From positions 1,860,001 through 1,924,000 of the forward strand of contig NZ_QRGP01000001.1 of NCBI RefSeq assembly GCF_003367235.1: a stretch of DNA of 64,000 nucleotides, read 5' to 3'. A program made the translations under genes and the position numbers. The stretch is from Sphingorhabdus pulchriflava (lineage in GTDB: Bacteria > Pseudomonadota > Alphaproteobacteria > Sphingomonadales > Sphingomonadaceae). Numbering within the stretch: the stretch's first letter is position 1; every line of letters starts with the position of its first letter. Under the pieces are notes generated by a model. That model was not told the DNA's origin and did no database searches. It was given only the letters and a program-made list of their open reading frames with translations. Positions 13,692 through 15,641 of this stretch are shown here, in pieces.

Positions 13692-14392
13692 TGCGCCGAT
13701 TGCGATTGTTCGTCCCCCTGCTTGCCGGGGCCAGTCTGCGTGATCGCAGCGGCGCCGCTGCCGGTGCGGCCTTTGGCGTATTGGTCGCCGCCCTCACAGG
13801 TATGCTGGTTAGATATGCCTTTCCCGATTTTCCGTTCCTGGTTGCGCCCATCGGCGCTTCGGCGGTTCTGGTTTTTGCGGTGCCTGCCAGTCCCCTCGCC
13901 CAGCCATGGCCGGTATTCGGTGGCAATGTAGTTTCCGGCTCTGTCGCCGTAGCGGTCGCCCATGCAATTCCCGATCCGGCGCTTGCCGTCGGGCTGGCAG
14001 TCGGGCTGGCGATCATGGGAATGTCTATCCTGCGCTGCCTCCATCCGCCCGGAGGGGCCGTTGCGATTACTGCGATATTGGGCGGGGATGCCATCGTGAA
14101 GGCAGGCTTTGCCTATCCGGTAACGCTGGTCGCCGCGAACAGTGCGGCATTGCTGGCAATGGGCTGGGTCTACCACCGTTTTTCACAGCACAGCTATCCG
14201 CATCGGCCGGAACCTGTGATCGAAACCCCCATATTGTCCGGCCTTCTGCGCGCCGATATTGATCAAGCCATTGCCGAAAGTGGCGAAACCTTCGACATTG
14301 ACCTGGATGATCTGGAAAACCTCTTGCTCCGCGCCGAGGCCATTTCCGCCGAGCGGCAAAGAAGCGAATCTGGCTCGGATTACTCGATTTAA
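13691..14392 (+). CDS. HPP family integral membrane protein
   Basis: The 233-residue inner-membrane protein has several hydrophobic segments in its first 160 residues and the family signature in LRCLHPPGGAVAITAI. A soluble C-terminal tail of about 60 residues is rich in Asp/Glu (IDLDDLENLLLRAEA). HPP proteins are membrane proteins, some implicated in nitrite transport in plants and cyanobacteria; a transport role here is only an analogy. It is translationally coupled to the NTF2-like gene upstream. No ligand-binding CBS domains are attached, unlike some longer relatives. Confidence 0.85.
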   Translation: MRRLRLFVPLLAGASLRDRSGAAAGAAFGVLVAALTGMLVRYAFPDFPFLVAPIGASAVLVFAVPASPLAQPWPVFGGNVVSGSVAVAVAHAIPDPALAVGLAVGLAIMGMSILRCLHPPGGAVAITAILGGDAIVKAGFAYPVTLVAANSAALLAMGWVYHRFSQHSYPHRPEPVIETPILSGLLRADIDQAIAESGETFDIDLDDLENLLLRAEAISAERQRSESGSDYSI

Positions 14393-14476
14393 TCCAAAGC
14401 GTTGGGCTTGGTTATCTCGCTACAGGCAAATTCCCAGTTGAAATTCCCGTAACAACCCCTAAATCGCCACTCAATC

Positions 14477-14593
14477 CGGGCCCCTCTGGCGCATGCGGCG
14501 GCATGCGTGATGTCGGATTGTTCATCCGAAAGCGCGACACGCGGCGCAACCTCCGTCTCCCGGGACGGATTGGACACATTAGGGGCCCGATAG
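14477..14593 (+). promoter_or_regulatory. structured 5' leader of terC, candidate riboswitch that hides the ribosome binding site
   Basis: CGGGCCCCT (14477-14485) is exactly complementary to AGGGGCCCG (14581-14589), which contains the only Shine-Dalgarno-like run (AGGGG), 8 nt before the terC ATG. Between them lie three hairpins: CGCATGC/GCATGCG (14490-14496 with 14501-14507), TCGGAT/ATCCGA (14513-14518 with 14524-14529) and TCCGTC/GACGGA (14552-14557 with 14564-14569). The result is a closed four-way arrangement that would block translation. A competing CCCCT lies at 14456-14460. TerC/MntP-type exporters are often controlled by manganese riboswitches of the yybP-ykoY class, and a separate terC RNA motif is known. 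I cannot match this leader to either consensus by eye. Confidence 0.6.
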
Positions 14594-15580
14594 ATGGATT
14601 TCCTGTTTGATATGTTTTTGGGCACGCCGGTCTGGTTCTGGCTGGCGTTCCTCGGCATTGTCGTCATTCTGACTGCGTTTGACCTTGGTTTCCTCCATAA
14701 GGAAGACAAGGAAATGGGGATTTCCGAATCCCTCAAGCTTTCTGCCTTTTACATCAGCATCGCTTTGCTCTTCGGCCTTTGGGTCTGGTACGCCAAGGGT
14801 GCCGATCTGGGCATGAAATATTATACCGGCTTCTTCATCGAAAAGGCGCTGTCGATCGACAATGTCTTCGTGATCAGCCTGATTTTCACTTACTTCGCGA
14901 TTCCAGCCAAATATCAGTACCGCGCGCTCCTTTGGGGTATCATCGCGGTGATCGTGTTGCGCGGTATCATGATCGCGGCGGGTGCTGCACTGGTGCAGGA
15001 ATTCTATTGGACGCTCTACCTGTTCGCCGCCTTCCTGATCGCGACGGGCGTGAAGATGCTGTTCACCGGTGACCAGGAAATGGACGTTTCCAAAAACCCT
15101 GTCGTCAAGTTCATGAACAAGCACTTCCGCGTCACGCCAGAATTGCACGGCGAGAAATTTCTGGTGAAGGTTCCCGACAGCAAGACGGGCAAGATGGTCA
15201 CCGCGATGACCCCGCTGTTGCTGGCGCTGATCGTCATCAATCTGGCCGACCTTGTGTTTGCGGTGGATTCGGTGCCCGCGATCTTCGCGATCACCACCGA
15301 TACCTTCATCGTCTACACGTCGAACATCATGGCTATCCTGGGCCTGCGTGCGCTCTATTTTGCGCTGGCGGCGATGGTGCACCGTTTCCATTACCTGAAA
15401 TATGCGCTGGCTCTGGTTTTGGTGTTTATCGGGTCGAAAATCTTCGTCTCCGACTTCATTCTGGGTGGGGATAAATTCCCACCGGTGCTCAGCCTCGCCG
15501 TAACATTCGCCTTGATATTGGGCGGGATATTCTACTCGCTCTGGAAGACCAAGGGCGAGGACGAGAAGGCATCTGCTTAA
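14594..15580 (+). CDS. TerC family integral membrane transporter
   Basis: The 328-residue polytopic protein begins MDFLFDMFLGTPVWFWLAF. It has about nine membrane segments and the conserved acidic motifs of the family: GFFIEKALSIDNVFVISLIF and LVFAVDSVPAIFAITTD. Acidic residues in these membrane helices are thought to pass divalent metal. Known TerC-type proteins are linked to tellurite resistance and to manganese export during metalation of secreted enzymes. The gene stands alone between a structured leader and a strong terminator, so it forms its own regulated unit. The fur gene 3 kb downstream may share the manganese/iron theme (inference). Confidence 0.92.
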   Translation: MDFLFDMFLGTPVWFWLAFLGIVVILTAFDLGFLHKEDKEMGISESLKLSAFYISIALLFGLWVWYAKGADLGMKYYTGFFIEKALSIDNVFVISLIFTYFAIPAKYQYRALLWGIIAVIVLRGIMIAAGAALVQEFYWTLYLFAAFLIATGVKMLFTGDQEMDVSKNPVVKFMNKHFRVTPELHGEKFLVKVPDSKTGKMVTAMTPLLLALIVINLADLVFAVDSVPAIFAITTDTFIVYTSNIMAILGLRALYFALAAMVHRFHYLKYALALVLVFIGSKIFVSDFILGGDKFPPVLSLAVTFALILGGIFYSLWKTKGEDEKASA

Positions 15581-15600
15581 ACCCACAGGTTCCTCCCGAG

Positions 15601-15641
15601 GAAAACCCCGTAGCTCTAATCAAGCTGCGGGGTTTTCTTTT
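15601..15641 (+). terminator. rho-independent terminator of terC
   Basis: GAAAACCCCGTAGCT (15601-15615) pairs with AGCTGCGGGGTTTTC (15623-15637) over a 7-nt loop, with one U-G wobble, and is followed by TTTT. It lies 20 bp past the terC stop. Confidence 0.85.

Follow-up and report, generated by a model that had tools for sequence, protein, structure and literature searches.

The terC RNA (Rfam RF03067), in which a helix P1 encloses an internal loop and a hairpin P2, is a candidate cis-regulatory RNA reportedly described by Weinberg and colleagues in 2017; no paper describing the motif was found in the literature searched, which took in only a minority of subscription papers. Two related systems can be set beside it. 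The yybP-ykoY manganese riboswitch (RF00080) likewise precedes some TerC-family genes in other bacteria and can act at the level of translation (PMC13274385). The alx leader of E. coli, linked to manganese and alkaline pH (PMC9603457), also leads a TerC-family gene; it is a member of the yybP-ykoY family and an RNA distinct from the terC RNA.

The DNA analysed here (the window) is a stretch of 64,000 nucleotides from Sphingorhabdus pulchriflava, and the features of the leader of its terC gene are collected in the table. This leader, which the initial annotation had considered a metal-responsive translational riboswitch of a type that could not be matched to a known consensus, is an ordinary member of the already catalogued terC RNA family: its score of 58.8 bits exceeds the cut-off of 39.9, the alignment covers the full length of the model (59/59 positions), and it displays the P1 and P2 helices, the conserved CCGGGCCCCUCUG and GAUGUCGG / GATGTCGG (the latter kept in 104/108 family members) and a TerC gene downstream. 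The conserved element begins at 14468, upstream of the position 14477 at which the annotated leader started, and the covarying helix P1 (14472-14479:14513-14520) had been missed. With its end at 14525, the Rfam match leaves out part of the anti-P1 hairpin, the stem that hides the Shine-Dalgarno (SD) and the promoter. As for yybP-ykoY, the proposed covariance-model check gave no match of RF00080 at the cut-off in the window and none up to E 10 in 14380-14660, and the other Rfam matches in the region (snoU13, ceN30) fell far below theirs.

Table. Features of the terC leader and gene (positions of the window).
Feature	Position	Strand	Basis
Predicted heat-shock-type promoter, GTTGAAA - 14 nt - CCTAAAT	14437..14464	+	Family-wide two-box motif; computational
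terC RNA (RF03067), aptamer-like domain	14468..14525	+	58.8 bits, cut-off 39.9, E 1.2e-7 for the whole window
P1 5' strand, CAAUCCGG	14472..14479	+	Rfam structure; covariation over 170 non-redundant RNAs
Near-invariant core, CCGGGCCCCUCUG	14476..14488	+	Identical in 98/108 RNAs
Closing stem 5' arm, CGGGCCCCU (= CGGGCCCCT)	14477..14485	+	Sequence, fold, close relatives
P2 hairpin, 8 bp	14489..14508	+	Fold, Rfam structure, covariation; one compensatory pair among 7 close leaders
P1 3' strand, UCGGAUUG	14513..14520	+	Rfam structure, prefix folding, covariation
Anti-P1 hairpin UCGGAU-UGUUC-AUCCGA, competitor of P1	14513..14529	+	Fold, prefix folding, close relatives
Third hairpin of the multibranch loop	14550..14573	+	Fold; two pairs with compensatory change among 7 close leaders
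Closing stem 3' arm, AGGGGCCCG, containing the SD AGGGG (14581-14585)	14581..14589	+	Fold, control SDs, close relatives
terC gene, TerC family membrane protein, 328 aa	14594..15580	+	Pfam PF03741, 169.6 bits

The closing stem proposed from the sequence was confirmed, with 9/9 Watson-Crick pairs between arms 95 nt apart and the terC SD lying within the 3' arm, where 8 nt separate its AGGGG from the start codon at 14594. In the minimum-energy fold of 14477-14620 (-61.6 kcal/mol) this stem shuts a multibranch loop, and the three internal hairpins of 6-7 bp described earlier proved roughly right, the fold giving hairpins of 8 bp (P2), 6 bp (14513-14529) and 4 bp (14532-14547) plus 9 pairs in two runs (14550-14573). 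The z-score of the leader fold is -2.87, and none of 200 dinucleotide shuffles was equally stable. P1 and the closing stem, moreover, use the same CGG and are therefore mutually exclusive, so that the initial annotation had described one of two exclusive folds. The core is part of P1 and internal loop in one state and anti-Shine-Dalgarno arm in the other. Two exclusive folds of which one hides the SD, the arrangement expected of a translational riboswitch, are present in the computed structures, and the earlier view of a structured leader able to sequester the SD and probably acting as a translational cis-regulator is supported.

The order in which the helices form was followed by folding of growing prefixes from 14470. 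P1 reaches 0.93 when the RNA ends at 14526; from 14538 to 14580 the balance shifts between P1 and the anti-P1 hairpin; and at 14592 the closing stem stands at 0.97 and P1 at 0.00. The pairing of the P1 3' strand with the next 40 nt follows a family-wide trend, since the native value (-8.93) is stronger than that of swapped sequences (-8.01), none of 5000 swaps being as good.

Within the genus, the leader is present in 7/45 genomes, that of the window included, and both helices are kept in these close relatives. The seven leaders retain 9, 9, 9, 8, 8, 8 and 8 of the 9 closing-stem pairs (59/63), and the SD-AUG gap is 8 nt in all of them. The changes in this stem are one G-C to G-U replacement in two sequences (G001 and G427, with 8 pairs and near identical) and the loss of an end pair in four; they were counted from fixed anchors, as the MAFFT alignment places the SD arm one base off in G440, G001 and G427. 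P1 is complete (8/8) in six leaders and has 7/8 pairs in one, with replacements of A-U by U-A, C-G by G-U and A-U by G-U. Compensatory changes among the seven occur in P1, in one pair of P2 and in two pairs of the third hairpin. The search for such changes in the closing stem, proposed earlier as a refuting check, is not decisive here, with one-sided changes that keep the pair, lost end pairs and no double change in the seven leaders; the lack of compensation is expected here and is no refutation, because one arm is fixed as the near-invariant sensor core.

On a wider scale, the terC RNA was detected in 21/41 genomes (the window's own and 40 relatives) and in 52/385 genomes drawn from the class. 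Both surveys together provided 109 loci, 108 of them usable: L101 was left out (no core by pattern), and L109 was retained in spite of its 35.5 bits, below the Rfam cut-off. A pattern scan demanding exact CCGGGCCCCUCUG and GAUGUCGG added at least 119 stretches, referred to below as the named set, which overlaps the first set (L253 is the G002 leader) and is thus not fully independent of it. The covariation test of P1 used 170 non-redundant RNAs from the two sets and included columns up to 8. Columns 5, 6 and 7 are paired in 153, 139 and 128 of them, where shuffling gives means of 105.6, 109.7 and 75.0, and column 4 is at chance (79 against 73.0). For P2, columns 2-6 are paired in 167, 161, 145, 145 and 125 of the 170, with shuffle means of 120.9, 89.8, 67.7, 70.0 and 71.8. 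The RNA was also observed in Pseudomonas and Arenimonas records (L151, L156, L203, L213, L224), and SDs complementary to the core were noticed there, GGAGGGGCUC in the Pseudomonas leaders L151 and L224 and AGGAGGGCC in L213 and L203.

The first recognised gene after the RNA, identified at 105/108 loci, is a long TerC in 45 cases, DUF465 in 21, a Zn-ribbon protein in 10, DUF4112 in 7, a short TerC in 5 and a mid-length TerC in 3; the remainder comprise an unnamed family (3), a TerB-like one (2) and nine types seen at one locus each, whose recognition is a self-match, the query having been taken from that locus, and 3/108 loci have no recognised gene. At 15 of the 21 DUF465 loci, a TerC gene follows as the next one recognised. 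Pfam searches on representatives gave TerB, DAGK, CitMHS, carbonic anhydrase, a cation ATPase and a Na+/H+ antiporter (L032, behind DUF465), and in the named set, among the matches listed, DUF475 (itself TerC-like), MnhE and Tim44; in that set 31/120 RNAs had no gene recognised by the queries, of which 18 were read by eye and 3 through Pfam. To judge from these assignments, several of them single cases, ion transport appears to recur besides TerC among the putatively controlled genes. Non-TerC genes (DAGK, TerB-like, the unnamed membrane family) followed by a TerC gene were seen at L031, L091, L099 and L105 and, in the named set, at L181, which suggests small operons. Three divergent pairs of terC RNAs, approximately 96 to 132 bp apart (L042/L071 in G079, L051/L102 in G168 and L072/L092 in G167), are back-to-back copies of the leader, in each case with one RNA before a TerC gene and the other before a DUF4112 gene. 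The window's genome contains a second terC RNA (C2:466432; L331:133-484) before a small DUF465 gene with no TerC nearby, its sole other TerC gene being far away at C2:78233. Following terC itself, an inverted repeat and a T run at 15600-15641 look, by eye, like a terminator.

The pairing between core and SD in the window (-21.4 kcal/mol) is stronger than in each of 571 control SD regions, which, like the 552 controls of the named set, were taken with a simple ORF caller and include some false ORFs. Core-SD pairing was calculated for 97 of the 108 loci, those with a start within 200 nt and without the five doubtful starts. The 51 SDs of TerC-first leaders are shifted relative to the controls (Mann-Whitney 7e-5), and permuted cores were as good in 1/300 cases on these SDs vs 81/100 on 200 control SDs. 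By gene type, the first set shows the shift in 43 long-TerC leaders (p 4e-6) and in 10 Zn-ribbon leaders (p 4e-5), p values that ignore kinship, and no shift in 21 DUF465 leaders (mean -8.6 vs -10.1). After removal of related leaders the shift of the whole set is no longer significant (Mann-Whitney 0.11), with pairing at or below -16 in 10/57 leaders vs 30/571 controls; in the named set, among the matches listed, the corresponding figures are 6/40 TerC leaders vs 30/552 (Fisher 0.028, Mann-Whitney 0.094). Core-SD pairing was accordingly rejected as a general property of terC RNAs and is confined to a subset; its occurrence in a minority of leaders makes it one expression platform among several. 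Pairing of the P1 3' strand with the SD did not hold as a general rule either, the signal being weak (swap p 0.041).

The effect of the aptamer on the SD was estimated by forcing its formation. In the window the SD is unpaired at 0.16 in the free ensemble and at 0.49 with the aptamer forced, and the fact that it is only 0.49 open even then counts against an ON switch. Over the same 97 loci mean accessibility rises from 0.31 to 0.40, by more than 0.1 in 41, with a fall of more than 0.1 in 6. When ordinary SDs were grafted onto 118 non-redundant leaders, the native ones proved less accessible (0.257 vs 0.325, p 1.8e-4). With the aptamer forced, the SD is released by more than 0.1 in 36% of native leaders vs 25% of grafts (p 0.011), the paired test of release on these leaders giving p 0.083. 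The graft effect is carried by the TerC (64) and DUF4112 (7) leaders; the DUF465 leaders (14) are already more open than their grafts at the outset, and the Zn-ribbon leaders (5) show no release.

A family-wide motif, CTTGAAA - 14 or 15 nt - CC(C/T)A..T, lies upstream of the RNA. Of the 185 leaders (out of 205) that fit the model, 148 have its first base 40 to 46 nt ahead of the core, a distance that places the transcript start at about P1 and, in the window, probably near 14472. The second CCCCT noted earlier as a possible competitor does exist (14456-14460); however, it overlaps the predicted -10 box and probably lies outside the RNA. A plain consensus scan for a sigma-70 promoter found none. 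The window's promoter scores 18.2, the 95% null level being 13.2, as set on 411 gene regions of 200 nt. This level is exceeded by 132/205 terC leaders (60 nt; the training set itself), by 22/27 groES upstream regions (200 nt; 27 of 30 loci usable), by 2/31 tRNA upstream regions (100 nt) and by 17/517 gene regions (100 nt). At the lower 95% level of the 100-nt gene regions 8/31 tRNA regions pass, so that part of the motif also occurs in housekeeping promoters; in the TTG comparison, the windows for control (-80 to -52) and test (-58 to -34) have some positions in common. The promoter class, taken to be heat-shock (RpoH) from its consensus, was also compared with the groES promoter of the same genome (CTTGACC - 14 nt - CCTATCT vs GTTGAAA - 14 nt - CCTAAAT for terC), and the terC RNA promoter is read here as putatively RpoH-type, a call from sequence that is prone to error. 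A survey of S. meliloti warns that the RpoH motif resembles that of RpoD and that false positives are numerous among predictions of this kind (PMC3616915). In Caulobacter under copper stress, terB and terC rise, as do RpoH, DnaK and GroEL/ES (PMC8224329); this response fits the RpoH reading and is no test of it.

These elements can be arranged in a mechanism. With transcription starting at about 14472, P1 and P2, the sensor domain, would fold first. A candidate signal would stabilize P1 and keep the core GGGCCCCU within the sensor, so that the SD, made approximately 60 nt later, would stay open; without the signal, the anti-P1 hairpin would capture the P1 3' strand, and the freed core GGGCCCCU would pair with AGGGGCCCG, so that the SD would be covered and TerC translated less. 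Computed at equilibrium, the ensemble with a hidden SD wins by 12.5 kcal/mol when P1 is forced and by 13.9-15.1 kcal/mol when the whole aptamer is forced (the ends differing slightly), a gap too large for an ordinary ligand, which implies either a kinetic switch, decided during transcription, or no switch. We lean towards the former, a translational ON switch most likely decided during transcription. Transcriptional attenuation is unsupported, since the search for an intrinsic terminator in the leader gave one weak pattern match, with a shuffle mean of 0.4.

As regards the signal, a tentative extension of the ON-switch reading is that manganese is not what the terC RNA senses and that pH or a different cation may be, with the core serving as both sensor and anti-Shine-Dalgarno and with mostly heat-shock-type promoters starting at P1, so that transcription under stress and ion-gated translation would be stacked.

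The large energy gap and the strongly closed ensemble would also suit a leader that simply occludes the SD without any ligand, its stem lowering translation permanently or melting under heat, and the predicted heat-shock-type promoter would be in keeping with it. Such a leader is nevertheless unlikely, as a stem with 8 G-C among its 9 pairs should be too stable to melt at growth temperatures, and the near-invariant core and the covariation of P1 and P2 across the family would be left unexplained.

Manganese, which the initial annotation mentioned as the signal of the yybP-ykoY riboswitches often found with TerC-type genes, would make the terC RNA a functional twin of that riboswitch, sensing Mn2+ and opening TerC translation at high Mn2+. 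A link of TerC proteins with manganese export or metalation has been described, and yybP-ykoY controls some of their genes (PMC10550928 and PMC13274385); both RNAs tend to occur in the same genomes, yybP-ykoY being found in 26/52 genomes with a terC RNA vs 31/333 others (Fisher 3e-11; counted by hand from genome lists and uncorrected for genome size and kinship). Overall, yybP-ykoY is present in 57/385 genomes of the class at E 0.001, 43 of them above the family cut-off, that of the window included. It is, however, unmatched in the window, and the genome has its own copy elsewhere (L274, G000:C1:64209), before the gene of a GDT1 divalent cation/proton antiporter; this separate switch before an exporter makes manganese less likely for the terC RNA. 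Furthermore, in the 20 read of the 26 genomes with both RNAs, yybP-ykoY precedes GDT1-like genes in 15, MntP-like genes in 4, a Na/Ca exchanger in 1 and TerC in 0 (assigned by Pfam in 7 and by sequence motif in 13), and among the genes that follow the terC RNA are those of a Na+/H+ antiporter, carbonic anhydrase and a cation ATPase, besides DUFs. A cell might have two manganese switches; a different signal for the terC RNA is the simpler reading, and we regard manganese as quite improbable.

Finally, a leader peptide beginning at the AUG of GAUGUCGG, the translation of whose short ORF (14510-14593) would open the stem, is suggested by the window, where the ORF ends exactly in TAG-ATG with its stop abutting the terC start, but was rejected as highly improbable, because the frame ends near the start codon in 28 of 104 leaders vs 14 and 26 in the control frames (10 vs 3 and 14 in 57 non-redundant leaders) and, among the seven close leaders, the ORF is fused to terC in three and stopped early after a one-base deletion in one.

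The two-state fold, the probable start, the manganese riboswitch resident in the same genome and the list of downstream genes make the terC RNA, a candidate riboswitch, a testable case. They indicate the length of RNA to be used for probing, the mutants to be made, and the reason for not starting from manganese alone.
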